64,000 nt of DNA from Mesodorylaimus sp. YZB2_4 (lineage: Eukaryota; Nematoda; Enoplea; Dorylaimida; Dorylaimidae): positions 186,001-250,000 of the forward strand of contig JASANH010001073.1 of the NCBI GenBank assembly GCA_030248295.1, written 5' to 3'. Of the stretch, positions 3,701 through 61,745 are shown one piece after another (position 1 is the first letter of the stretch; the number at the start of each line of letters is the position of its first letter). The translations under genes and the position numbers were made by a program. The notes below the pieces were generated by a model, which had not been told where the DNA came from, did no database searches, and saw only the letters and a program-made list of their open reading frames with translations.

Positions 3701-6700
3701 GAAACCCCGACATACCTGTGAGGATTGTTATCACCTTCCGCCAACAAGCTCACGATTTCTTTCATAAAATGGGAGCTGTTCCGTGGCTTTAACAAATGAT
3801 GCAGGACCTTAACCCCGTGCTTATTCTTGACGATTCCGTCCAAATCTTTTAAGACCTCCTGAAATTCAGAGCGATGTTTTGATATCTCCTTCACAGTTTC
3901 CAAGTAGGAACTTAAAGAATTTCTCTTTCCAGATAAAGCGACAGAATGAGTCAGGGCCACTTTGGGGGTAAAGGAAGGATTCATCAGGCGAGTAAAAAGC
4001 CCATACCCCAGGCTGCGAAAAGGGGTCATAGTCCCCATCCTCAGGATCAAATAGACAACCCCAAAAAAGATTTCCTAGAAGGCAGATAGAACGCCTCCAC
4101 TTGTGTCTTCTATTCACAGGCCCTCTCCTGATCCTTCCCTCCTCCCTCCACTATGCTATTTATTCTCTGGCCGAGCACTGAGCAGTGCACTTGAACACAG
4201 AGGACACCCACTCACCTTCAGCACAATCTTCTGTACCAGCAAAGTGTCATCAACTGCGTCGAAAATGGCAAACAGAAGCATATGCCCGTGTTCTTCGCAG
4301 CAAAGTTTCAAAACCAAGCTTTTCAACGTTCGAACAATAATCTTTCGTTCTTTCGGATTTCCAAACCAAACTGATCGCATTCCGCACAGAACTCCGTCTT
4401 TGGTATGCACCATCTCCACAATCCGTTCCTTCAGTAGGTCGATCACTTCCTGCAAAAGCAGAACATGACGCGCTCTATACACTGTACTGTGTGCCCACTA
4501 GACAGAGGGAAAAGCAATCATCCTAACAAGAACCCTCTGTGACAAAAACATCCACCACAGATTGATTGAACCCAGCAGGGTCAAGCTGTCATGGACAGCA
4601 CAACGGGAAGAGCAAGAGCGAACGCTGATGTCTCACTCGTTTTATCAAAACATGCCAAAAGTCCCATGTGCACTTCTTACGCTTACCCCTCTCTCCCGAG
4701 GGGCTCACGGAAAAGCATGTTTCCCCCAGCTGTGAAAAGCAAAGTGCATTTCAAACACAGCGATGAAACACCACGGGATGGCACCTCAGGTCAGGCCTAA
4801 ATGTTTATCTTCAAGATAGATGATGGACACACAAGCTAATTATCACTAAGAAACTAATTATCGCAGTTTCGTTCAGCAAAAGAAAATAGGAAGGGACAAA
4901 TTACCCTCAGCAACCCAGTTCCTCATATACAGCCGTTATCGGGGCTACTGCAGGCAGATTAACAGTACCATGCCAAACCCCACACATCCCCAAGCCTGCC
5001 TACCTTGCGATCCGCCTCCGTGCAATGATCCAAGAACTCCCGTATGAGTCGATGAACCAAACTGTACTTCAACACTGGCTTGGTCGACAAATCTGAAATG
5101 TGCTCTTTCATCGAATCCAAAATGGCCGACTTTCGTTCTGGTTCCTTCGCGAATATCTTTTCCAACGTAATAGCTTCGTCCACCTAAAACAAACTGATAA
5201 TTCAGTTTCAAAATCAGCGGGCACAAGGGACATATGCTGAGAGCACAGTGCCTACTGAAGTGTCGACTCCGTATCTGTCGCTGAGCAGGACCTTATGAGC
5301 ATCAGCGTCATCAGAGAGCCTATCGATATCGGGAATCATGAAGTGACTCGTAGCATATATGGCATACGAGCGTATCCGGATTCCCCGCCCTCCCGTCCTC
5401 TTAAAGACGAAGTGCACTCTGGAATCGATGTCATAATATAGGAAAAAGAGTACGATATTCAGATCCCCCTTTTTGATATCCAGAAATTCGACTTTTTTGC
5501 ATAGGGTGCTACCCCAATAGAATTGAGGCTACCCCTACTAAAACGAGGGTGCTTAATCAGAATCACACTTTTTTTCAATATTTTAACATTGATTCTGGAG
5601 TGTACTTCGTCTTTAAAGGGCAGTATACTGTTCCAATAGTTCTCGTCTCCTCCATACTTTCCCAACGCTGCCTTTACTCCCTCCTTGCCAACTCCTACCC
5701 GACCCATAAGCACTTACCTTCCACAACGCGTATTCGGGACTATAAAATTCGGAAATCATACGCGAACGTTGCAATGCATTTGCATATTCATTGTAAGCAT
5801 ATTCAACGACTTCGGCCGCCACTGCGTGTTTCAAAAGGTGCGGAATCTTGCCGTAGAAACACTGCATTATGAACTCGCGTTGCGCTGGGGTCCTAAATTA
5901 CAGATAAAAATTATGTAAAAAGCATACTGAAAAAGAAAAAGAAAGTCACCCGTATTTCAACATTTTAATAACGAAAAATTTTGCGTATTTTGATTTTGCC
6001 ATGGGTAAAATTTCTCCTAAAAAAATGAAATTATAGACTTTGGTACGCCTCTCAAAATGACCAGCTCAGCTGTTAGGGATCTGTGTGTGTATAAGCACAC
6101 ACTGGATGCTCACGGTAACTAATTATCCTGGGGTGGGACACAACATCGCTGACTTCGTCTGCGGGAAGGGGGTATGATCTTCCTCCGGGGGAGGGGGGGT
6201 TAGAAGGTCGGCGACATGGCGGCCCATTTTGGTTTCTTGTAAAAATTGAATTTTTTTAATTTAATCTTTTCCCGCGAAAATTTAAAGTTGGTTTGAGCCT
6301 TCCAAGGCAAAACATTGGGTCTCTTTTACTACAAAAAAATGAAATTTTTCTGGGCGAATCAAAAATAGCAAAGGTACCTGCACAATCTCGCCGGGCGGGA
6401 CAGGAGGGTCTTCGCCATGTAAAAAATTTTCTTCTGCCAAAGATAGTAGGGGGGGGGGGGGGTCAAACACAGTAAAGGTGGGGGGGCACAGACTGCGTGA
6501 CCTGCACATTCTTACCGGGCGGGACAGGAGGGTCTAAAACATGAGAAGGGTTTACAAAATTTTTCCAACATTTTTTATGGGGGTCTTCGCCAAGTAAAAA
6601 AATTTTCTTCTGTCAAAAATAGTAGGGGGGGGGGGGGGTCAATCACAGTAAAGGTCGCGCGACCTGCACACCCTTGCCGGGCGGGACAGCGGGGTCTGAA

Positions 6701-20777: not shown

Positions 20778-20977
20778 GATTTTTAAGTTTACGAAACCGC
20801 CCTCCAAGCTTATTCTTCGCGCAATTTTTTTACGGGACAGTCGCTCCAAGAGAAGTCTGTTCGCTTACAAACATTATTTGGCTACATAAAGCCGCATTTG
20901 GCGCGTTTAAGTTCGCGATTTCCAGAGCACGAACTCCTGGTTGTTCAGTCAATACGTACTAACGGTTTGAATTCAAT

Positions 20978-22291
20978 ATGCTTCAGGTTTTTAGTGAGAA
21001 AGCTTTGGTCTTGTCGTCTAATCAAACTGGCACAGGAGAGAAAAGTGAACTTGATCTGGAATCGTCGGAAAGTGGGAATTCGCCCACACTTTTCGACGGT
21101 ACCGATTTTGGCAAATCATCGACGACGGAGATGATGGCCGGCGATTATAGTAACGGATTCACTTTGGCGGAGGATGAACTTATGAAAAATTTTGGAGAAA
21201 ATTTTTTTTCTGGTTCATTAAATACACCAGATATTCTGGACGATAACCCGTTATTGACGGATTTGTGTTCGTCGTCGGACGCCGTCTTCAGTCAACTCAG
21301 TCAATTGGAGGGTATGCCTTTATCGAGACAAGGGTCGATCGAAATGATCAAAAAAGAACCGGCCGTTTTAGCTGTGCAACCACAGCTAAATGTGGGCGAA
21401 GAAGAAATAATCGAAGAAATATCGACATCAGCAAGTTGTTCACCGACCGATGACTCGCCACCTTTTCAACACCTCGTACCCGTTTATCAACGTCAAGGAC
21501 AAGAAGATTCGCGCATCATGCCAAAGATCGCTTTCAGTGCGCACGGACTCTTACAACCTGCGCCTGCTATCGAGCAATCGATGGCTGTTAAGCGCAGTAG
21601 TAATCACGGTAGTCGATTGATCACGATCAATCCTCGGCAGCAACAGGTACGCGGACCGTCGAATTTTTCGGCCTCTAGCAGCTACACTCCGCCACCAACC
21701 CCGTTGCAGTCAAAAAGGAGCGATACTGCATTGTCATCATCAAACAGTCGAGGAGCTGTTTATGCGCGTCAATATCGTCAAAAGAATCGAGAACACGTTG
21801 AACAATTGGAAGCGGAAAATGGTAGATTGGTCGAAGAAAATGATCAGTTACGAGATGCTTACGAACAAATGCAATCGGAAAATGACAAACTGCAGCGCGA
21901 AGTCGCTTATTTACGCGAAGTGTTACACAATCAAAGCGCTATCGCATCGGTTTTGAATTCGGTCGCTTGCAATGCGCCTGGACTCAAATTGAAGTTTCCG
22001 ATGGCTGCGATGAGTGGCGGTGGGAACAAAGAAACGATGACGACCAACGGTGACCAAAAGCGTACGATCGAGACCAGGTCCAGTTCGAAACGTAAGATCG
22101 AAGATCAAAGTCAAGGACAGTTTTCGGCGATGTCGAAACGATCCAAGGCCAATGACGGTTCAGCCAATCCGAGCGGCGCTGGTGTATGTCTTCACGTCAA
22201 TGGCGATACGGTGTCGGTGGAATTGTGTTCGCGTTGCAATCGTGAAGCGAGGTGCGTAGCTAATGAACAATGGAATCGTCATCAACAGTAA
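20978..22291 (+). CDS. CREBZF: bZIP transcription factor of the CREBZF (Zhangfei) type, single exon
   Basis: An uninterrupted 437-residue frame. An in-frame TAA at about 20960 makes ATG 20978 the first usable start. Residues about 260-325 form an atypical basic region (ARQYRQKNREHVEQLE) and a leucine zipper of heptads ending YLREVLHNQSAIASVL, close to the YLRAVLANETGLARLL end of human CREBZF. Near the C-terminus GVCLHVNGDTVSVELCSRC matches the conserved [20 protein letters not shown] block, which I regard as the deciding evidence. The basic region lacks the canonical Asn of most bZIP factors, as CREBZF does. The N-terminal half is acidic and Ser/Pro-rich, like an activation domain. CREBZF proteins act in the nucleus as co-regulators of stress bZIP factors. 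The D/E-H-x-Y host-cell-factor-binding motif of the human protein is not found. No intron is needed. Confidence 0.88.
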   Translation: MLQVFSEKALVLSSNQTGTGEKSELDLESSESGNSPTLFDGTDFGKSSTTEMMAGDYSNGFTLAEDELMKNFGENFFSGSLNTPDILDDNPLLTDLCSSSDAVFSQLSQLEGMPLSRQGSIEMIKKEPAVLAVQPQLNVGEEEIIEEISTSASCSPTDDSPPFQHLVPVYQRQGQEDSRIMPKIAFSAHGLLQPAPAIEQSMAVKRSSNHGSRLITINPRQQQVRGPSNFSASSSYTPPPTPLQSKRSDTALSSSNSRGAVYARQYRQKNREHVEQLEAENGRLVEENDQLRDAYEQMQSENDKLQREVAYLREVLHNQSAIASVLNSVACNAPGLKLKFPMAAMSGGGNKETMTTNGDQKRTIETRSSSKRKIEDQSQGQFSAMSKRSKANDGSANPSGAGVCLHVNGDTVSVELCSRCNREARCVANEQWNRHQQ

Positions 22292-24845: not shown

Positions 24846-25285
24846 TAAAAAATTTGGAACGCTTCACGAATTTGCAAGCGCGCAGCCAGCGGGGGGGGAG
24901 CAGGGGCCCATGGCCTAGGGTTAAAAGTCCAGACATAGAAAAATGGAGCATAATAGTAGAGCACCCATTGTGAGTATAGGCCAAGGCATAGAAAGGCAGT
25001 GGCAACACAACACGAAGGGTACCAAGATATATACCTCAGGCTTAAAAACGGGTCTTGTAAAGAGCGATTTTTCAAAAATTTCGCCTTGGGCGGGGAGGGG
25101 GCACATCCCCTCCCCCTAGCGGGCTACGCCCGCCTGGAGCGCTTCACGCTCCGGATGTTAAAATATCTTGCTTGGTCCCTCCCTAACGAGGCAACCCTGG
25201 CTGCACGCCTGATTTGAGTGTCATCCATGCGCAGGGGCCATGCTAGTCTTCTTTGTATCATTCCAATTTTAGCATACAGGGGCGT
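24846..25285 (-). pseudogene. U6 snRNA pseudogene split by a MITE
   Basis: The minus strand carries the U6 3' part (GCAAATTCGTGAAGCG then TTCCAAATT) at 24846-24874 and the U6 middle and 5' core (ATTAGCATGG-like and CCCCTGCGC words, with substitutions) at 25217-25285. The two pieces are joined in an intact U6 gene at 31578-31681. Here 337 bases are inserted between them. Substitutions in the core and loss of the 5' hairpin make it non-functional. Confidence 0.85.
24875..25211. mobile_element. 337-bp MITE inserted in the U6 pseudogene
   Basis: ATTTG flanks the element on both sides (24870-24874 and 25212-25216). The ends are inverted repeats: left CAAGCGCGCAGCCAG, right end reversed CAGGCGTGCAGCCAG, 13 of 15 identical. 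Inside are short hairpins such as GCGGGCTACGCCCGC and GGAGCGCTTCACGCTCC. No coding sequence is present. A 5-bp duplication does not fit hAT well; the superfamily is left open. Confidence 0.8.
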
Positions 25286-25499
25286 GGCCAGCAGGGGCTG
25301 CGGCCCTGTAGCCGGTAGCACATGGATGGCTCCCTTTAATCATTAGGGTACATACTCGATGCTAAAACTAGTTATAGCAAGAAAACTTGGCATTTTGATA
25401 GGTCATAATGGCAGAGACGGTGGTTCGGTTTTAGTAAGTATCCTACTTTTAACCAGGAGAACCTTCCCTTCCTTTTTTGGCAGGCCGGAGGGAAAAAAC

Positions 25500-27564: not shown

Positions 27565-27664
27565 GTAATTTTTTCTGTAGATAGTGATGCTGGTCTAAAC
27601 TAAAGCGGTTTTAGGTCAGAGTTTTTTCCTCAGCAATTTTTTTTACCAATTTCAATAGTGGAAA

Positions 27665-30600
27665 ATGGCAAAACTCTCGTGCAACTCTTCCAATGCGCCT
27701 CGTCGTGGCTACTCGAGCTTCATCTATCCGTCCATGATCCTCACGCTTCTGGTAGCTTTGTTCGGCATATATACGGCCTCGGGCATGAAAAAGATGCCAC
27801 CGCATCGAATCTTCGAGCAAGAACATTATGAAATCAAATCGTGTCTATCGGTCGATTTACAAGAACATGAACGCGTCGCGTGCCGTTTCTATGGTCTGAT
27901 GATCGACGCTGGTAGTACGGGAACACGCATTCATATCTTCGAATTCTCGCACGACACCAAAAATCCCGCATCACCGTTCAAATTGGAAAATGAAACTTTC
28001 ATGGAAGTGAAACCCGGTTTGTCGGATTTTGCGAATCGACCGAGCGAGGTGAGCCAGTTGCCCCGAAGGACTGCGCACAGAGGCCTATTCTAGGCTTTGA
28101 TTTGACTGATCTCCATCGTTTCTTTCAGGCCGGTCGTGCTATCCTCCCTTTGATCGAGAAAGCCAAATCAGTTGTACCAAAGAACCTTTGGCCGCACACA
28201 CCCTTAGCCTTAAAGGCGACAGCTGGCCTGCGACTGCTACCACCAGCCGAAGCTGAGGCGATTCTTGATCACGTAAGACATTTTTTAGTGAATTACGAAT
28301 CGATACTGATTCTGATTTAGTTTCAGATCGAGGAAGTGTTCTCGGAGTGTCCGTTCTTGGTCAACGATGAATCGGTGTCTGTGATGAGTGGCACGGACGA
28401 AGGAATCTTTGGTTGGTTCACTGTAAATTTCTTGTTGGATCGATTGGATTCGCTGTTGTTGAAGCCTGAAGGTACGATTCACTTTCGTGGTTCGATAGTG
28501 GAAAAGTGCATTCTTTTGTTATTTTAGTTCTGACCAGAGCCGTCAGCCAAAAATTGACTACGGCGGCACTGGATTTGGGTGGTGCATCGACCCAAGTCAC
28601 GTTTCGACCACTTTCCGACAACACCCTCTCGACTGCGCCAGTAGGCTTTTTGAAGGAAATCCGAATCTTCAATCAAACTGTACCTATCTATACTCACAGG
28701 TAAGGGCCGGGCTCAAGCTACTGCGATTGCTTTACTTTATAGCGCATACCGCAGATACGTCCAGCCCACGTGACCCCAACTCTCGGGTTGACTCGGGTAC
28801 TAAGGTGCTAGTCATGCCTGCTCTCTGGTTAGGTTCGAGCATACGAAGACTGAGCTGGCCTGCATGTACTTTAGTCGGCAGCTATACCTTATGCCAGTGC
28901 CAGAGGAGAGGAAGGGAAGTAGTGCTAGCTAGGTCACTGATAAGGTTATCACATCAGTGCAGTGTGTCAGCTTTGCATGTAAATACTGTCCTTGGCGCCC
29001 AAGATAAGAAGTAAGAGCTTCCTCGGGTTGGGCCAGCACGTGACTAACAAATATGTGGGCGTAAGATTTGGATTATGGTCCCGTCTCAGTCTATTGAGTC
29101 GACAGAAACTGATAAGCGACGCGCTGCACGTGCTTGGCATTAGTTGGCGCACGTGTCACTGTCTAACTGACACGATGATAGTGCGTGCGTGCGTAGGCTG
29201 CAGTAAAATATGGACAGGGACTTGACTGATGTCGTGCATGGAGTCTCTGTGCGAGCATATACTGTACTGCATGGTAAACCCAAAGTGTGAAGTGGAGGGA
29301 GGGTCTCTGGCGAGCGGTGAAAATTCCCAGGGCGGTAGCTGCGACAGAGCGTGTTGAGCGTGAAAAATATTCATATTTTTGATCAATGAGTTCATTGCGC
29401 TCTAAGTATGTGCAATAAAACTTCGCTTGCACAGATCTGTGTTGCTCCCCACTGCCGGAGGAAATGTGAATGATTCATAAATGCATTCATTCCCTTCCGT
29501 TTCAGTTACCTGGGCAATGGTCTTATTGCAACTCGATTGAGTATCCTTCGTTTGAACAATAACGCTCAGAATGTGCAACGGAAAATGATGGACACGACAT
29601 GCTTGCCTCCGGAGTACACCATTCACTGGAACTATAGCAATAATTTATACACTGTCAGGTAAGGATGGAAATCAGTGCCTTCGGGAGTACTAGAGTCAGA
29701 ACAATAAGTTTTGCAGGGGTGGCCAAAACTATGGTTACGAACAATGTGCGACAGAAGTTCGTAAATGGATCGTGAAGAGCGAGATCAATCAGCCAGTTGA
29801 ACTGGTCAAAAGAGATATCTATGCCTTTGGTTATTACTTCGATCGAATCAATCAAGCGGGTGTTGTGCAAGACGACGTGCATGGCGGATACGCCAACGTA
29901 ACTCATGTGGAGCAGGCTGCGAGGAAAGGTGAGTGGTGTATGCAAACATTTCTCAGAGGGTGGGGATGGTTAGAGTTGGTTGCAAAATAAGGGCGGGATA
30001 GCTGCTATTGCTGCAGTGGAGTTACAGAGTTGTCACCATACTGATTGGTGGTTAGATGAGGCTAGAAGTGTGCGCAAGACTAGCAGGTACAAGTGCTGAG
30101 TTTGCCTGGCACATTGTCAAAGTGAGCGGGAAGAGGAGAAAACAATCGTACAGGAAGGATGGGTGTCTGGGCAAACAAATGCACGTTGACGGAGCGCAAA
30201 GTGCTGAGCTAGCTGAAAACGAACAGGGTCAGGTTGGCGGCCAGGTGGTGAGTTTTGAGATGGCAGGAAGGTTCAAGAATGTATTGTTCTGAGAGTCGAC
30301 AGCACACTGGAGGTGGCTTGTGGATACAGCTAGTTAGGAACACCTGTGCAAATGAAGAGAAAAGGTGGGCGGAGTTCGAGGACTCTTGACAGAGAGTTCA
30401 ATAAAGCTGTTAGACTTCTTTGAGGCCCCTGAGTTAGATGTTTCAAAGTTTAAAAAATGTTAACAATTGGCTTGGGGACAAGAGAGGAGACGTGTTAAAA
30501 AAGAACGCCTGAGGAATTAGGCGGGGGTCGTGTCATAACTCCAATCTTCATCGCCAGTTGATTGTGCATGTAAAACATTTAAAAAAACGCATGCACTCGA

Positions 30601-31577: not shown

Positions 31578-31628
31578 AAAAAATTTGGAACGCTTCACGA
31601 ATTTGCGTGTCATCCTTGCGCAGGGGCC

Positions 31629-31668
<40 letters not shown>

Positions 31669-31681
31669 CCATGGAATGGAC
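31578..31681 (-). ncRNA. U6: U6 spliceosomal snRNA gene
   Basis: The minus strand matches U6 from ATATACTAAAATTGGAACGA through the ACAGAGA box, ATTAGCATGG-CCCC, GCGCAAGGATGACACGCAAA and the 3' tail, ending in a six-T pol III terminator at 31583-31578. The core is intact by eye. The 5' hairpin differs from the vertebrate sequence but still pairs: GTCCAT-TCC-ATGGAC. A TATA-like TATATAAAC lies about 22-30 bases upstream (31702-31711), as expected for a type 3 pol III promoter, so this copy is likely transcribed. U6 forms the catalytic core of the spliceosome with U2 and U4/U5. Confidence 0.95.
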
Positions 31682-31701
31682 GGCAGAAGCGGTTTGCGTC
31701 C

Positions 31702-31711
31702 GTTTATATAC
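31702..31711 (-). promoter_or_regulatory. TATA box of the U6 gene
   Basis: TATATAAACG reads on the minus strand about 22-30 bases before the U6 5' end, the spacing used by pol III type 3 promoters. The proximal sequence element expected further upstream (about 31725-31750) cannot be recognised without knowing the lineage-specific motif. Confidence 0.65.
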
Positions 31712-32698
31712 AAGCGATAATTCTGAAACCTCAGCTGAACGGGTTGCAAAGAGTGCGGGAATTCAAATTTTGAAGTGAAATTTCTCAGTGATGATAGATT
31801 GATTGGCAAAGTTTAGAACAAGATTTTGCAGAAATTATATCACAAACAAAAATCAAAGAAAATTTAGGGTCTTGAGTTGACATATGATTAAGAATCTAAA
31901 GAAATTATTTTACGGAGGGCGAGGATTAAATCGTGTCGAGACCAGAGTCTCTGCTTATGGCAACTCCGATGATGCGCTGTGTGAATAATGTAAGTATTAC
32001 GCACCAGCTTAAGCAATATTCATTACCGACCAACGACATTTTACCGAAAAAAAATTTCGACCAGAATGTATGAAATATTAATTTGCAAGTTCAAAAATAA
32101 TATAGATAATTTGCTTCAATCTTTCAGAACTTGCTTGCGTGACTCCTGAATTTAAAGAGGTGAGAAATACAAAAGATTGGACTTGAGACTGCGGAGGAAA
32201 GCGCAGTCTTCTTATATTAAACGTTTTTCATGGAAAGAAGCGCTAATGTCTTGTGTGTCGTGACTTGGAGAAAAGGTTTTTCAAAAGGTATCGTATTCAT
32301 TCATTTTTCACTCGATCTTTAGCAGTTTAATAGGTGTTTATAATCATAACAGAGAATCTTTTGCATGATAAGGCATTGGCAATGTAAATTCTGTTGATTT
32401 CATTGTTGTTTCTCTAAGCAGAGGAAGTCGTGGCCACGGAAGTTGCTCGTGTTTGAGTAGTCTTGATAATAAAAAGGATGGAGAAAGATGATTGAAAGTT
32501 TCAAGTGTTTCCCGTCGTTTTCAGATCTAGACTTCTTGGAGATGTCAGCCGCTCGACAAATTTGCCAGGATCAGTAGCGGACATCGAACAACGAAAGTCA
32601 CAGCTACAGTATTGGTTCGGTGGCTCTTTCGGCTGAGTACTTGGTATGTATGTATACCTTATATTTTTTGAAGATCTGGCTTCTGGGGCACGAAAACT

Positions 32699-32766
32699 TA
32701 CATGATGACTGCATAGTTCACCTGAATTTCTTTTGACGACTAATTTTCCATCACTGTCTGATTTGA
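32699..32766 (+). ncRNA. C/D snoRNA, U80-like copy 1
   Basis: Box C ATGATGA at 32702-32708, D' CTGA after GCATAGTTCAC, C'-like TGACGAC, and D CTGA at 32758-32761. The D' guide GCATAGTTCACC is the complement of GGTGAACTATGC, a conserved 28S rRNA segment targeted by U80/U77. The guide before box D differs from copies 2 and 3, so this copy may have lost or changed its second target. Confidence 0.8.
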
Positions 32767-33117
32767 TGAACTATCTAACTTTCAGAAAGTCTCTTTCTCT
32801 CGGCTAGCTTTTATTATTTTTTAGGTCGCAAGGCGAGGAATGGACGGAAAACAATGGCTGTGCGTTTCTAACTCATCAGTTGGATGGCGCCTTCTAAAAG
32901 CGGTGAGAGAAATTAGTGGTGTTTGTCGGCTACAGCATCCGAGACTTGGGTAGTAGCCCTGGTCCCCCTCCCAGGCCCCCATGGGAAAGCCAAAGAAAAT
33001 CCCTGACCTCTGTCCAGACATATGAACAGCCGGGCAGCCGGGAAGGACTTCCCTTCCCTTCCCTAGGCTTTCGACCCCCCCCGCCGGGGGCTAGGTTTCG
33101 GATGCTGGGCTGGGATT

Positions 33118-33203
33118 TCTGTTGATGATGATAACCGTAGATGTCTGTGTATGTGTCTGAATCACATTGTGGAATACACCATGTTGCCTTCCTTCTGAGG
33201 TCG
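33118..33203 (+). ncRNA. C/D snoRNA, SNORD83-like copy 1
   Basis: Box C TTGATGA at about 33122-33128 and box D CTGA at 33195-33198. The ten bases before D, TGCCTTCCTT, complement 18S rRNA AAGGAAGGCA, placing the fifth base opposite the A methylated in human 18S (A468, SNORD83) and yeast (A420, snR52). The 5' half differs from the other two copies. Confidence 0.8.
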
Positions 33204-33404
33204 TGTAACACGCGTTCCTGCCCCCCTCGTTCATTATCAGTGATGGCATTCTTTGTCGTTTTAGGCCATACAAACGATTAAATTGTTCAGAGTGACTGGT
33301 ACTCGACAATGACATGTAACAGGTATGTTGTGTGCATGTGTTCAGCCAAGGAGAATCCAAGGAGGCCTTTGTGGCAGAATCGCCACTCGAGTGCTTGACT
33401 AATT

Positions 33405-33478
33405 GAAAATGATGACATGAATACCCCCGTCAGATAGTGCCTGACGATTGGCACTGTTCCTCTTGTTGCCTGAATGTA
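33405..33478 (+). ncRNA. C/D snoRNA, third type copy 1
   Basis: Box C ATGATGA at 33409-33415, internal CTGACGAT as C', and D CTGA at 33470-33473. The segment GAATACCCCCGTC before the internal box complements GACGGGGGTATTC, close to a conserved 18S rRNA stretch (GACGGGGGCATTC), with a G-U pair. A partner snoRNA in other animals was not identified. Confidence 0.75.
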
Positions 33479-33658
33479 CTGCATCTCTCGCCGTTAGAAT
33501 ATGTCCATTATGGGTAATAAGATTTTGAGCTGGTTTTTGTTTCAGGTGAACTGAACTGCTGGACGCCCGCGTGAAGTAGGACACTGCGATTGGCGCCATC
33601 GAGAGATTGGGAGCAAGATCAGGTACGATATACTTCAAGTTGAGACGCGTCAATGCAA

Positions 33659-33725
33659 GAATGTGATGACTGCATAGTTCAGCTGAGAGTCTCTGACGAC
33701 CATCTTTCGCTCCTATCTGAATATT
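33659..33725 (+). ncRNA. SNORD80: C/D snoRNA, U80-like copy 2 (SNORD80)
   Basis: Box C GTGATGA at 33663-33669, D' CTGA after GCATAGTTCAG, C' CTGACGAC, and D CTGA at 33717-33720 preceded by CTTTCGCTCCTAT. Both guides match human U80, which carries ATAGTTCAG and CTTTCGCTCCTATCTGA and directs two 2'-O-methylations in 28S rRNA. In mammals U80 is hosted by GAS5. Confidence 0.88.
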
Positions 33726-33881
33726 TTCATGGTATGACTGCACCAGGCTGTCGAGTCCACGTGACTAATTACAGTATCTCGTTTTGTAGACCTCATGCCG
33801 CCTGATGATTTGTGTGACGTCTGATCCAAGGCTGATAAAGGTGAGTTCTTTGTGTGGCAATAAATAAGGGTATGGGTGTAG

Positions 33882-33959
33882 CGAGATGATGAAACCCATG
33901 GATGCCTGTATCTGAATCTGACTGTTGAATAGTCCCATGTTGCCTTCCTTCTGACACCT
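33882..33959 (+). ncRNA. C/D snoRNA, SNORD83-like copy 2
   Basis: Box C ATGATGA at 33886-33892, D CTGA at 33951-33954, and the D guide CCCATGTTGCCTTCCTT as in copy 3. An internal CATGGATGCCTGTA before a CTGA is shared with copy 3 and could be a second guide; its target was not identified. Confidence 0.82.
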
Positions 33960-34145
33960 TTTCTAACCCGTTTTGGAGTGCCATTTTTGACGGACTTCAA
34001 CTTCCATCTTTTTTTCCAGGCCTCGAGTCTGCACTCGATCGTTCGGACAATTCGACTTTTTTGGATGGAACAATGAAAATTGCGCTGAAAGGTCACGTTG
34101 GCTTCAATTATGGTATGTGAAAGTTTTTTTTATTGATGGAATCTG

Positions 34146-34222
34146 CGACATGATGACATGAATACCCCCGTCAGAGCTAAGCACTGACGATTGGTTTTGT
34201 TCCTCTTTCTAATCTGATGCCG
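34146..34222 (+). ncRNA. C/D snoRNA, third type copy 2
   Basis: Box C ATGATGA at 34150-34156, the shared GAATACCCCCGTC, internal CTGACGAT, and D CTGA at 34214-34217. The sequence between C' and D keeps only TGTTCCTCTT in common with copy 1, so the conserved guide is the one upstream of the internal box. Confidence 0.75.
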
Positions 34223-34401
34223 CCGTCTGTCTGGGTTGGGTATGCTGTACTATCATGCCCTATTCGCATTCAATCCTTTTTAGCACGAGTTCATTCGGAA
34301 AGCATTGATCGAATTTTGAAGACCTCGGAGACCTGTCACCTTGCACGGAAAAGGTAAGCGACGCACTGGTTTTATTTGTTGCATAGAGCAGGTATGACAG
34401 G

Positions 34402-34468
34402 GAAAGTGATGACTGCATAGTTCAGCTGAAACGATCTGACGACTAACTTTCGCTCCTATCTGATATAT
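34402..34468 (+). ncRNA. SNORD80: C/D snoRNA, U80-like copy 3 (SNORD80)
   Basis: Box C GTGATGA at 34406-34412, the guide GCATAGTTCAG before D', CTGACGAC as C', and CTTTCGCTCCTATCTGA with D at 34460-34463. Both guides are the same as in copy 2, so this copy should be able to direct both U80 sites. Confidence 0.88.
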
Positions 34469-34619
34469 AGCAACAATGAAATATTCTCAGGGTGCTTTTT
34501 AGGTTTTAAATAAAGTCTACCGTTTTAGGTCCCTGGCGCTGGAGTTGTCCATTGAAGAATGTATGGATATCAAGCAGCACGAGGTAAGACCAGGCGCATG
34601 TTGGAGAGATGAGAGTACC

Positions 34620-34697
34620 TGCTGTGATGAATCGCATGGATGCCTGTGCCTGAAATATTCTGTGGATTAGACCCATGTTGCCTTCCTTCTGAGAAAA
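34620..34697 (+). ncRNA. C/D snoRNA, SNORD83-like copy 3
   Basis: Box C GTGATGA at 34624-34630, D CTGA at 34689-34692, guide CCCATGTTGCCTTCCTT. It lies in the last intron, 60-65 bases before the terminal exon acceptor, like the other copies. Confidence 0.82.
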
Positions 34698-35261
34698 ATA
34701 AGATCAAATTTCGAAGAGTAAATTGTTTTCGAAATTTTAGTTGAATTTTTGTTTCAGATGCGCTTATAATTTGACGAAATGTGAAAAGCTAGTGTTTTGT
34801 TACCGTGGACAGTATTTACTGTTGGCGCTCACCAGCGGAAAACATGCTTTCGAATAAAGAATAGCGATTCTTTGGAAGAAGATGGGATCGCAATTAAGAT
34901 TTGGAAAGGTTGATGATGATCTCTGAAATACTGTGGGAAGCGGAAATTTCTTTTTACGGATATCTCTTTACGAAGTAGATCTAAGTTATTTTTTTGACTT
35001 TATCCCCCACCCCAGGGGTGAAAGCATTGGCATTTAAGCCTTGAAACAGCCACAGCAGTGCGTTTTACGAACTTCAATGTCAGATCACTTCTCGCTGCAA
35101 GGCTGCTTCATGTTCATCCAGGCAAGCTGGAGCCCACAACCCAAACTAGTGAAGGCGTGCTGAGCAGTGTGGTTACGGTTATCCATGAAGGAGAGGGCTG
35201 GTTTCAGTACTTGAGCCTTATGCTGTATCAGCAGAACAGGAATGACAGGTACTCTTTCACC

Positions 35262-35400
35262 GCATCACCAAGCCCTTATGCACTCGAGGGTGAAGACACG
35301 CATTACATTGCACACGAAATGAGTTACCGGCCGCGAGTCGCCCTTACCTGCCATCAGCGTGCGGGCAGACGCCTAACTCACCAAGCCATGAGGCCTTAAT
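35262..35400 (-). repeat. tRNA-derived SINE
   Basis: On the minus strand: GGCCTCATGGCTTGG, TTAGGCGTCTGCC, then CGAGTCGC-type B-box remnant and a tail with TTCACCCTCGAGTGC. It is the same family as the copy at 44804-44972. Confidence 0.8.
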
Positions 35401-36278
35401 CATATGTACCATTTTCGTGTATATTCCTAACCATTTGAAAGACGCAATGCTTTTTCAAACAATTTTGGGTTCAATTATCTGAGTCAGTTGAATCAAAGCT
35501 GAAACGCGAGGTGCCGTGCCCCCAAAGGTGCGTATTTTATTGTAAAAATCCTAGTTTTTGACGAAAAGGTTAGCCCAGCCGCCGTACTCTAACCAAATGC
35601 AAGGCAAAGGAGGTTGGCTTGGCTCCCTCGACGGCACATACTTGGGTGGGCTATACTTTCCTTGATGCGATATATCTACGTTTATGTTGCGCTCAGGGCT
35701 GGGGTGACCATCGCACTCACGCACTTACCCTTTACATATACATGGGGCCGATTCTTTGTGGGATTTTATTATTGTGTTCCACCATAGGCTGGTACCCACG
35801 GGAATAAACTTATTCGTACTTTGGAGGAAAGCTATACGACTCCCTTCCGTTACCTTGAACCTAGTTGTGGAACAGTGAGACTTGCTGCAGTGAGATTGCA
35901 CCTGTCGTGACTAGACCCCGGATTGGGTCGGGCCGGGCCGGGTTCAAAGAGGGCTAAACGGACAAAAAAAGCGATTTTGCAAGTTCCTATTATCAGTTAC
36001 AGAAACCGTCTCATATCTGTTCACCTGCAGGATTTGCAGACTTTGCTTTATGCATGCTCGCATAAAGTCTTGCATTCCCTCGTATTTATTCTGCATAACT
36101 TCCAAGAATGTCAAACAAATTGTAAGATGTGACAGTGCCAAATTTTTTGAGTGATTTTTGCATAAGTAAAGGCCCAGAGCCATTCTCATTATCATTGGTT
36201 TTCCTAGCTGCACTCAGTTTCTCTTCCAGCTTTGCACAAACAGCCGAAAACAGCTCGCGAGGTTCAGACAAGGCGGTC
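35401..36278. other. Intergenic sequence, nothing recognised
   Basis: No gene or bounded element seen. The 36000-36120 part (GTTACAGAAACC, TTCCAAGAATGTCA) is similar to 44480-44610, so it is probably an unnamed interspersed repeat. Confidence 0.4.
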
Positions 36279-37179: not shown

Positions 37180-38290
37180 TGATAAAACTTATAAAACTGG
37201 CACAGAAACGCTTCCTATGTTCAGCCAAAGATAGCCAGCCTGCCCTTTCCAATCCAGTCTCATAAGAAATGGTAAAATCGAAATACAATCGAAGTGCATA
37301 ATACTGCGCTCGAGTTCAGCTATGTCCACACAACCATATTCTAAAATTGATCGAATACACGCAATGTACACTGAGCTAAAAACAGATGGATGAGCACTCC
37401 TACCAAGTTTACGCCTGAGAGCACCAATCATGTTCATACACTTTCGAACCACGATGGAAATATGCTCAGAAAATTTCAGATCATCAGAAAATACAACGCC
37501 CAAGTAAGTTACCTTGTCGTAAAAATCCAACTTATGTCCACATGAGAACAAGTCTGGCAGCTGATGGATTTTGTTGTGCCCATATCGAAAAATAATAGCT
37601 TGTGATTTCGAAGGATTGAAATTCAAACCAGCTTGGCTGACCCATGACGATATAAAATCAATGATCGGCACTACCTCGGCGCCATTCAAAGTCCTCAGAG
37701 GAACGAATAGTCCAGTGTCGTCGGCATATGCTTGCAGTAGAAACTGGAAATTGGGCCTTGAATCGATGAAGCAGAGAATCGATGTACGCGACGAATAGTG
37801 TTGGTATCAAGATACTTCCCTGTGGCACACCAGAAACCACCTTTCTGGGTTGGGATAAACATCCATCAACGGCGGCACATTGAGATCGATCAGACAAGCA
37901 GGAATTTAGCCACCGAACGAGCTTTGACGGCAATCGATGATCAGTAAGACAATTCAATAATAAGACGTGTGAAACTTGGTCGAAAGCCTTCTGGAGGTCG
38001 AGAAAAGCGCCGACAACGGACTTGGTATCTTTCGAAGTGAGTCAGGAATGAATTGACTAGCAGAGATCAGAGCGCTGTTGGTTCTACGACGTTTGCAAAA
38101 TCCATGTTGGTTGGGCGATATCGATAAATACGAGCGTATCAGTCGATCGACGCGTCGCTCCAATAGTTTTGACAGGATCGATAACAGCGAAATCGGGTTG
38201 TAGGATTTGATCAGACTTTTGTCGCCAGGTTTAGGTATGGCAGTGATCTTGGCACACTTTCAAGAATTAGGAAATCGTTCCTCTTGTATT
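37180..38290 (-). pseudogene. Non-LTR retrotransposon reverse transcriptase fragment
   Basis: The minus strand carries reverse transcriptase blocks in several frames: LLERRVDRLI and NQHGFCKRRRTNSAL, LDLQKAFDQVSHVLL, VSGVPQGSILIPTLF (QG-S motif), AYADDTGLF (the catalytic YADD), and SQAGLNFNPSKSQAI with YLGV downstream. This is the palm-thumb order of a jockey/CR1-type LINE. At least two frame changes separate the blocks and neither endonuclease nor ORF1 is present, so it is 5' truncated and dead. Confidence 0.9.
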
Positions 38291-59199: not shown

Positions 59200-61745
59200 A
59201 AACGTCGTGAAGCGGGTGATGGAATCGTAACCTATTTTGATCAAGCAAATATTTTGGGGGGATGTGGAGATGGGCAAGGTGGTGGTGTGGACGATCACGG
59301 GGGCGATAATGAAAGCGGAGGACGAAATAATGACCGTGAGGACGCCATGGACGATGGCAATTTCGAAGGTGTTCAAGAAAACGACTTTGAAGGGGAAGAA
59401 TATCTGCGTGATGTCCATTCAAGTGGGGACTTGGGCAACAGCGAAGATCAGGCTCAGCTCGAGCGCGGAGAGGAAGAGGACAATGGTCTGCTAAGAGAGG
59501 GTACGTAAAAGGGTATGCTCAATTAGGGCAACAAAACTAATGACAGCTCAAATGTCGAATGCAGCTCGAGCAGAAATTAGCCATACGCAGCCAAATTTTG
59601 TTGTAATCAAAGCGCCCAACGGCACCGACATTCACATCGGCGGTGATCCGAACTATGTAATGGAATTCGCTACGTACAAAAGCGCCCTTAAAGATCCGGC
59701 GCCAACATCAGCTGCCTTCATGGTTTTGGCACTAATTCAACGGTACATGACTCGAGACGAAATTTGCCGAACGTATTTGACCAAAGATGAGCTGCTGGGG
59801 AAGACGGACGGGGTCCTGTTGGACCAGAACATGGTGGCAGCAATGAAGAAACAGACGTCGATGCAATATCCGGAATGGGATGTCGACGACGATTCCCTTG
59901 CGGTCGCCTTGAAAAGGATGTTCAAGAGGGAATGTCTGAAGGTCAGTATCATAGTTATTTTGCATTAGGTAATAGTATAACTCATCGTGAGAAGCGGGGG
60001 GGGGGGGGGAAGTCGTGTTGTGGACTTGTGTTGGCGCTGACCTATTGAAGCCCTGAGTAGTTTCAGTTCTAGTTTAGTGCTGTGATCTTTTTAGAAGCGG
60101 CGTAGTTCAACTCGGGAAAATACTCTCGCAACGAGTCAGGCCGTGAGAGATGCGTCAGATTGTGCTGGAAAGCCAAGGCCACAGCGTTTGGCTGAGCCGG
60201 ACACGAAGAAGACCAACGAAGTCGGGCAAGGAGCTGGTGTGCGATACGGCATTGCCACAATGCAAGGATGGCGAATCGCAATGGAAGACGGTCATGCGGC
60301 AGCGGCGGGGCTCCGAATGCCAGCTCCTTGGACCGAGTGGGCTTTCTTCGCCGTCTTTGACGGCCATGGCGGACGCGAAGTGGCTCAGTATTGCTCTTCT
60401 CACCTTCTCGGCTCCATACTAAACACGACCGAGATGAAAGAATTGGCCAATCAAATGCCAACTGGATCACAGAAATTCGACTGCAAGCAAGTCGAAAAGA
60501 TTACGAACGGTATAAAAACGGCCTTTCTAACGTTGGACAAAAAGATGCGGGTATATTCGGGCCATTACGATCGAGTCGGTGCGACCGCCATTTGTGCTTT
60601 ATTATCACCATCTCATATTTTCGTGGCCAACTTGGGGGACAGCCGAGCACTTATCAGTCGTAATGGCAACGTTGTCTTCGCGACTGAAGACCATAAGCCA
60701 ACATTCCGCAGGGAAAGGAACCGCATCGAGGACGCTGGCGGCTATGTCGAAAATCGCCGAGTCAATGGATCTTTGGCCGTATCACGGCGTTCGGCGACTA
60801 TCAATTTAAACGCGCACCTAGATTCGAGCAAGTGTCGCAGATCGTCAGTCCCGAACCTAGCGTTTATTTCACTGAACGCGATGCATCGACGTTGAAGAAA
60901 GACGAGTTCATTCTTTTGGCATGCGATGGCGTATTTGACGTCATGAGTAATTTCGAACTATGCGATTTTGTGAGAAGTCGATTGAAGATGACCGATCGTT
61001 TGGACTTGATTGGCAATCAAATTTTGGACCTGTGCTTGTCGAAGGTAAGATTGTCTTCGAGAAAAGGAGGGAGAGCACCACCTTTAAATCCATGGGATTT
61101 AAAAGAGTTTTATTTTAATTTTATCGGGTATGTGTCGTGTCAGGCTGTGGTAGTCTGAGAAGGCTTTGGGTACCTCCTCAAAGCTTTGACGTTCAGCAAC
61201 TGGCATTATCAGCCTGCAAGTCGGACTAAGCGGAGAATTCGACACTGCTTTGATAGATGATAGGACAGGATTTCCTTCTAAAACAGGCCGCAAGACTCCT
61301 CTATTTGAATAGACACCGCGGAGAGTAGATGGTCTCAAGAGTTTTTTTAAACCTGCTTGTCGAAGAAGACTGGAACATCATATCGACGAGCTCCTGTCTC
61401 GCATAAAACGTTGCGCATCAGGCTGCCAAGAAAGGCGACCGCATGCGTTGGCCAAACACTTCTACAGTATTACTGTAAACTTTTGCGGTAGTAAGCTGTT
61501 TCTGCAAGGTCCGCTTTACATGTACATACTCCCAGGGATGAGGTCTTTCCAATTTGCCATTACTGATTTGATTCCACAAATACGTATATTTGTTTCAGGG
61601 GAGCACAGATAACATGAGCTTGATCCTAGTCACATTCGACGATGCGCAGAAAGTATCTCCCGTGAACGCGGACATGGAAATCGCACCAAGCACAAAGCAG
61701 GAATCGCACCAGCAGACACATGGCAAGCTGGTGTGGCGCCCTTGA
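59200..61745 (+). CDS. Acidic/BEN-like domain joined to a PPM1A/B-type Ser/Thr phosphatase; one frameshift; 5' end not found
   Basis: Exons 59200-59500, 59547-59941, 60095-61044 and 61599-61745 join in phase. The first is Gly/Asp/Glu-rich. The second ends in a helical block, RYMTRDEICRTYLT ... GVLLDQNMVAAMK ... ALKRMFKRECLK, resembling a BEN domain (DNA or protein binding, chromatin). The third and fourth form a PP2C catalytic domain: RYGIATMQGWRIAMEDGH, VFDGHGG (metal-binding Asp/Gly), NLGDSRALI, TEDHKPT, NGSLAVSR, LLACDGVFDVM and STDNMSLILVTF with the last metal Asp. PPM1 enzymes are Mn/Mg-dependent phosphatases of stress-kinase pathways. It lacks the C-terminal helical extension of PPM1A. 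One G is missing near 60786 (CGGCG where CGGGCG is needed after VSR), shifting the frame although both sides are conserved; this is a sequencing error or a recent lesion. The usual short PPM1A N-terminus is replaced by the BEN-like exons. Confidence 0.8.

Follow-up and report, generated by a model that had tools for sequence, protein, structure and literature searches.

A probable non-coding host gene for eight intronic C/D small nucleolar RNAs in a nematode

A 64,000-nucleotide stretch of the nematode Mesodorylaimus sp. YZB2_4 (contig JASANH010001073.1, positions 186,001 to 250,000; hereafter the window) very probably contains a non-coding host gene for box C/D small nucleolar RNAs (snoRNAs), of the UHG/GAS5 type. 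The gene lies on the + strand and holds one C/D snoRNA in each of the last eight of its ten introns (32644-34757). There are three types of snoRNA, U80, U83 and a third that we call T3, and they follow one another in the order U80, U83, T3, U80, U83, T3, U80, U83. We report the motifs, splice-site grammar, spacing, complementarity to 18S ribosomal RNA (rRNA) and conservation pattern of this array, and infer from them its expression, splicing, methylation targets and mechanism of duplication. We propose that an RNA polymerase II transcript would be spliced, that its exons would form a dispensable RNA, and that each of the eight introns would release one box C/D snoRNA. The U80 copies would guide 2'-O-methylation of 28S A1521 and G1612 (human numbering), with U80a serving the A site only; the U83 copies would guide methylation of 18S A425; and T3 would guide 18S G884 through its D' guide while an accessory element holds the neighbouring 18S bases. 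The array itself would go back to a U80-U83-T3 exon-intron unit that was duplicated in tandem long ago, after which selection would have preserved the boxes, the guides and the spacing between box D and the 3' splice site, and the exons and intron filler would have drifted.

Ten introns can be read from splice sites between 31990 and 34757, and all ten have GT-AG borders. The snoRNAs, lettered in order of appearance, lie in the U80a intron at 32644-32824 (box C starting at 32703, box D at 32758-32761), the U83a intron at 32903-33264 (33126; 33195-33198), the T3a intron at 33323-33545 (33410; 33470-33473), the U80b intron at 33623-33789 (33664; 33717-33720), the U83b intron at 33841-34019 (33887; 33951-33954), the T3b intron at 34113-34283 (34151; 34214-34217), the U80c intron at 34354-34528 (34407; 34460-34463) and the U83c intron at 34584-34757 (34625; 34689-34692). 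A first-pass annotation, made from the DNA letters, had claimed eight consecutive introns with one C/D snoRNA each in this same order, and we found boxes C and D and GT-AG borders in all eight. Six of these introns are 167-181 nt long, the exceptions being those of U83a (362 nt) and T3a (223 nt). In each of the eight, 63-72 nt separate box D from the 3' splice site. Intronic C/D snoRNAs of vertebrates have roughly 70 nt between box D and the 3' splice site, and the closeness of the two values counts in favour of an intronic snoRNA host gene.

The first-pass annotation had named the copies U80-like and SNORD83-like and suggested running the SNORD80 and SNORD83 models. An Rfam scan supports the U80/snR60 and U83 copies, with two of the six above the curated cut-off and four below it (E 0.00024-0.0047); together with the pairing of U83 with the 18S rRNA of the same genome, described below, these matches bear out both names. 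U80b scores above the curated cut-off of the U80/snR60 family (RF00309) and has boxes C, D', C' and D and both family guides. U80c falls below that cut-off yet carries both guides. U80a also falls below it and has one guide: it retains the GCATAGTTCA guide and has lost the TTTCGCTCCTAT guide, a U77-like state. Among the U83 copies, U83c matches snoU83B at 35.9 bits (above the cut-off of 35), U83b matches the same family at 33.0 bits (E 0.00024, below the cut-off of 35) and U83a matches snoU83 at 34.0 bits (E 0.0047, below the cut-off of 50). U83a has a 6-nt insertion and retains the full D guide. For T3, Rfam matches were at chance level only.

Could some of the copies, notably U80a and U83a, be decaying pseudogenes retained only through their position in the host? 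We think this unlikely. The lost guide and lower score of U80a would fit decay, as would the insertion in U83a and the hairpin-forming stretch in its intron. However, boxes C, C', D' and D and the first guide core of U80a are intact, so is the full D guide of U83a, and both copies have kept the distance from box D to the splice site.

We searched the whole genome (145 Mb, 1067 contigs) for further copies. The exact U83 guide followed by box D occurs at five places, three of them in this gene (the reversed control pattern gave one). The other two, on contigs C1 and C176, were rejected as snoRNAs: neither matches model R2, and no snoRNA family is found at E<=0.5 in the corresponding loci, L019 or L023. 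The T3 guide with its D' box, allowing one mismatch, occurs at two places, both in this gene and both exact; its reversed control also gave two. The U80 family, in a search that scored the best 60 of 12135 candidates so that more copies are possible, was found at five places at E<=10, three in this gene and two others that are weak (E 3.8 and 8.1) and do not match model R1. The same search gives weak signals in 8 of 14 control genomes, none above the cut-off. Among the viral contigs scanned, the U83 pattern was found in at least 120 stretches (80 loci among the matches listed) and the T3 pattern at 14 loci, none of which matches model R3 at E<=1; the U80 pattern was found in no stretch.

For the targets of the guides we compared 17 guide segments with three rRNA pieces, giving 51 tests, and the p values are uncorrected. 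The 18S rRNA of this genome is on contig C791 (L009:726-2531; 1778 bits against the eukaryotic small-subunit model) and reads like what we take to be a nematode sequence. The D guide of U83, identical in all three copies, forms 13 base pairs with 18S 421-433, the segment AAGGAAGGCAGCA, placing A425 opposite the fifth nucleotide; the A predicted to be methylated lies within AAGGAAGG. Shuffling gave p values of 0.005, 0.01 and 0.01 (200 shuffles each), which count as one test rather than three because the guides are identical. A table for Neurospora lists 18S-Am417 for snR52/U83 (excerpt of PMC2780460). Judged from sequence, the A425 of the U83 copies is that snR52/U83 site. A search of the literature for SNORD83 together with A468 found no paper. 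A second U83 target through the D' region was considered and rejected (p 0.39-0.95 against 18S, the lowest value being 0.095 in the 28S 3' part).

U80/snR60 has an A and a G site (excerpts of PMC3511168 and PMC2653536). On a degraded 28S fragment of this genome, the second guides of U80b and U80c form 10 and 9 base pairs with GGGCGAAAG(A) (p 0.01 and 0.035). No new target was accepted for the altered guide of U80a (p 0.35 against 18S and 0.095 against the 28S 3' part). The 28S 3' parts were located on contigs C443 and C311. Two 28S 3' fragments at L018:2124-2713 and 6019-6438 (-) share a strand and are separated by about 3.3 kb, and their order is swapped relative to the 28S model, so this is not a simple insertion in ribosomal DNA. 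Beside the full 18S in L009, two further 18S-like copies occur at L005:50-2107 (-) and L010:512-1719; one has diverged and scores 1414 bits, the other is shortened and scores 944 bits. A search of the genome for the 5.8S family, scoring the best 39 of 5087 candidates, gave no match.

T3 has boxes C, D', C' and D. The guide upstream of its D' box (CAGA at 33431-33434 in T3a and 34172-34175 in T3b) is identical in the two copies and pairs with 18S 880-893 (p 0.015), with one internal mismatch and with G884, the predicted target, opposite the fifth nucleotide. A 3' element, TGTTCCTCTT, pairs with 18S 869-878, adjoining the D'-guide site in the correct antiparallel order. Its Watson-Crick run within 18S 850-879 is 11 nt in T3a and 10 nt in T3b (shuffle p 0.0007 and 0.0013). 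The name of a fly snoRNA for an 18S G962 site did not occur among the papers listed in our literature search.

The copies differ in a patterned way. Boxes and guides are identical at 46 of 46 positions between U80b and U80c, 43 of 43 between T3a and T3b and 26 of 27 between U83b and U83c, whereas the remaining positions agree at 11 of 24, 11 of 34 and 32 of 53, respectively. In the boxes and guides of the first copies, U80a agrees with either sister at 41 of 46 positions, and U83a with its sisters at 25 and 26 of 27. The later copies are also evenly spaced, at 743 nt for U80b-c, 738 nt for U83b-c and 741 nt for T3a-b; the first unit is longer (961 nt for U80a-b, 756 nt for U83a-b). The repeated three-snoRNA cassette that had been claimed earlier is visible in the order through eight introns and in the later spacing of 738-743 nt. 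We consider that the order, the spacing and the conserved guides are best read as the outcome of a U80-U83-T3 exon-intron unit having been duplicated in tandem long ago. Such a duplication, followed by drift outside the functional positions, would explain all three, including the contrast between guides and spacers.

Several results weigh against parts of our interpretation. The conservation mask was drawn with the alignment already known. The alignment of exons and introns suggested in the first-pass annotation gave no clear register-specific similarity: among nine exon pairs in register the lowest p value is 0.05 (E4-E10) and the others are at least 0.196, with 2 of 27 non-register pairs below 0.05; for the 5' intron flanks, none of the 7 pairs in register has a p value below 0.05 (out of register, 2 of 21), and for the 3' flanks 1 of 7 does (U83b-c, 0.02; out of register, 1 of 21). 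The duplication is therefore read solely from the snoRNAs and their order. The terminal stems around boxes C and D have little strength: their duplex energies range from -4.0 to +1.8, and three of the eight are favourable. The genome search leaves room for more U80 copies. The 28S region targeted by U80 was found only as a degraded fragment (28S domain II, on contig C236), and no match of the first U80 guide reaches significance (p 0.32-0.46 on that fragment, 0.32-0.98 over the available rRNA). For T3, a p value of 0.015 is modest by itself given 51 uncorrected tests, and the D' guide has its internal mismatch and a CAGA box. Taken alone over the entire 18S, the T3 3' element does not reach significance (p 0.06 and 0.12), and a longer run of T3b, of 11 nt, lies at a different place in 18S (at 218). 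Moreover, the 3' pairing of T3b does not begin until the seventh position before box D. Because of these last three points, we interpret the 3' element as pairing in an accessory role rather than as another methylation guide.

The first-pass annotation had proposed tandem duplication with free divergence of the exons. The order, spacing and kept guides agree with this, but exons and flanks bear no direct trace of it. That silence would also suit a different history, in which the snoRNAs were copied singly, by retroposition or transposition, into the introns of an existing gene, the repeated order being coincidence or the outcome of local hops. SnoRNA mobility between introns is documented (excerpt of PMC3511168), tandem duplication and intragenic transposition have both been described (excerpt of PMC2653536), and the even spacing may partly reflect a constrained intron layout. 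Serial insertion would explain the contrast between guides and spacers, but it leaves unexplained a three-type order kept through all eight introns; that order and the 738-743-nt spacing shared by U80b-c, U83b-c and T3a-b would need further assumptions. Moreover, the spacers inside the snoRNAs have also diverged (to identities of about a third to 60%), so that loss of exon similarity is expected with age. We therefore regard single copying as decidedly improbable, and keep tandem duplication as our reading.

The exons appear to be non-coding. Spliced together they amount to 747 nt (exon 1, whose start is not placed, was left out of the test); the longest run free of stops spans 81 codons, and the longest frame that opens with an ATG spans 58. 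Of 1,000 shuffles, 24.9% reach the 81-codon run and 25.9% the 58-codon ATG frame, so the lengths of the open reading frames are within chance. It is very hard to believe that the host is a protein-coding gene with an overlooked reading frame: one frame does hold that 81-codon run, but shuffles match both lengths about as often as stated and all three frames contain several stops. The earlier descriptions of exons without a shared open frame and of a non-coding multi-snoRNA host gene both stand; of the ten introns that we read, eight have one snoRNA each.

The ends of the gene are less sharply drawn. Probable exon 1 (31900-31989, +) has only its 3' end placed, at the GTAAGTATT donor, and its start at 31900 is arbitrary. 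Probable exon 2 (32128-32159, +) lies between the acceptor CTTTCAG and the donor GTGAG. It would be followed by probable intron 2 (32160-32524, +), which has no recognisable C/D snoRNA and whose internal splicing is uncertain, with a further AG at 32421. The exon preceding the first snoRNA intron is probably 32525-32643 (+). The last exon is probably 34758-34871 (+; 3' end approximate) and holds AATAAA at 34853-34858, the signal with which the gene had been said to end. For the first two introns we rejected extra copies of T3 and U83 (with filters off, models R3 and R2 reached at most 5.4 bits over 31700-35500 apart from the known copies) and of U80 (model R1, default filters only). We also rejected the idea that these introns are structured RNA, their folds having z values of +0.8 and +0.2. 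Upstream of the snoRNA in the U83a intron is a long imperfect hairpin (approximately 32924-33115) with near-inverted ends (CAGCATCCGAGAC / GTTTCGGATGCTG); the region 32915-33125 folds at -85.7 kcal/mol (z -3.1). As a repeated element it was rejected: in a genome search that skipped very common words it matched only itself.

A full-length U6 small nuclear RNA gene lies at 31579-31681 (-; 116.8 bits). It is oriented away from the host gene and has TATATAAA some 22-29 nt upstream. About 310 bp separate its start from the exon 1 donor, so upstream DNA may be common to both genes. Another U6 copy, at 25192-25292 (-; 56.4 bits), has diverged and is perhaps a pseudogene. Elsewhere in the window, open stretches match a PP2C phosphatase (60095-60895, +), a GDA1/CD39 nucleotidase (27659-28093, +) and a bZIP protein (20963-22291, +; bZIP_2 just above and bZIP_1 below the curated cut-off), and an open stretch at 37189-37806 (-) resembles reverse transcriptase, matching RVT_1 below the curated cut-off (E 0.00056), and is perhaps a retroelement remnant. 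Multi-copy major sperm proteins are a mark of nematodes; a major sperm protein query had 33 matches in this genome, 20 of them with 45-46% identity over about 120 residues and no stops.

The array amounts to a natural experiment. Exons and intron filler have apparently been free to drift, and what remains, the guides, the boxes and the 63-72-nt distance to the 3' splice site, defines the minimum requirements of an intronic snoRNA. We consider it evenly balanced whether this is a dedicated nematode snoRNA gene of a kind reported not to be found in C. elegans, with an undescribed T3 that guides 18S G884 and does so by gripping a contiguous 25-nt stretch with two elements, and with a U80 copy that lost a guide independently, as vertebrate U77 did. 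The novelties are three and modest, namely the lineage, the T3 snoRNA and the U77-like guide loss in U80a; the kind of gene is itself known from flies and vertebrates. Non-coding snoRNA host genes are stated as not found in C. elegans (excerpt of PMC2653536), which makes this one notable, and its presence in another nematode would imply either loss in Caenorhabditis or independent origin. Among the papers listed by our searches of open-licence PMC, titles and abstract beginnings named no nematode snoRNA host gene, which is weak evidence of absence.

How does the gene compare with known systems? The GAS5 set comprises U44, U47 and U74-U81; to our knowledge, neither U83 nor T3 belongs to it. Of that set, our Rfam scans found only U80 in this gene. 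The earlier label GAS5-like is apt for the architecture; with U80 alone shared, it does not extend to orthology. GAS5 and gas5-like genes of vertebrates are non-coding, as this one appears to be, with one C/D snoRNA per intron and U80 among them; the chicken gas5-like gene carries a tandem pair of U80 paralogues, and U77 is regarded as a derivative of U80 (excerpt of PMC2653536). With the U80/snR60 family our gene shares both guides in U80b and U80c, one copy being above the curated cut-off, and it differs in the second guide lost from U80a. The U83/snR52 families (RF00593, RF01179) have the same D-guide target in 18S and are weakly alike outside the D guide; here three copies sit within one host. 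T3 resembles C/D snoRNAs with accessory rRNA pairing in having a pairing element beside the guided site. It differs in that its two elements, known from sequence alone, jointly cover the contiguous 18S 869-893. Similar in layout are the Drosophila Uhg genes (Uhg1-5, 7 and 8), which likewise have no recognisable open reading frame and one snoRNA per intron in up to 16 introns, with only two Uhg introns lacking one (excerpt of PMC4430873). Uhg1 holds 16 snoRNAs and is credited with five rRNA positions that no other Uhg serves (same excerpt), which we take to mean that Uhg1 contains repeated isoforms.

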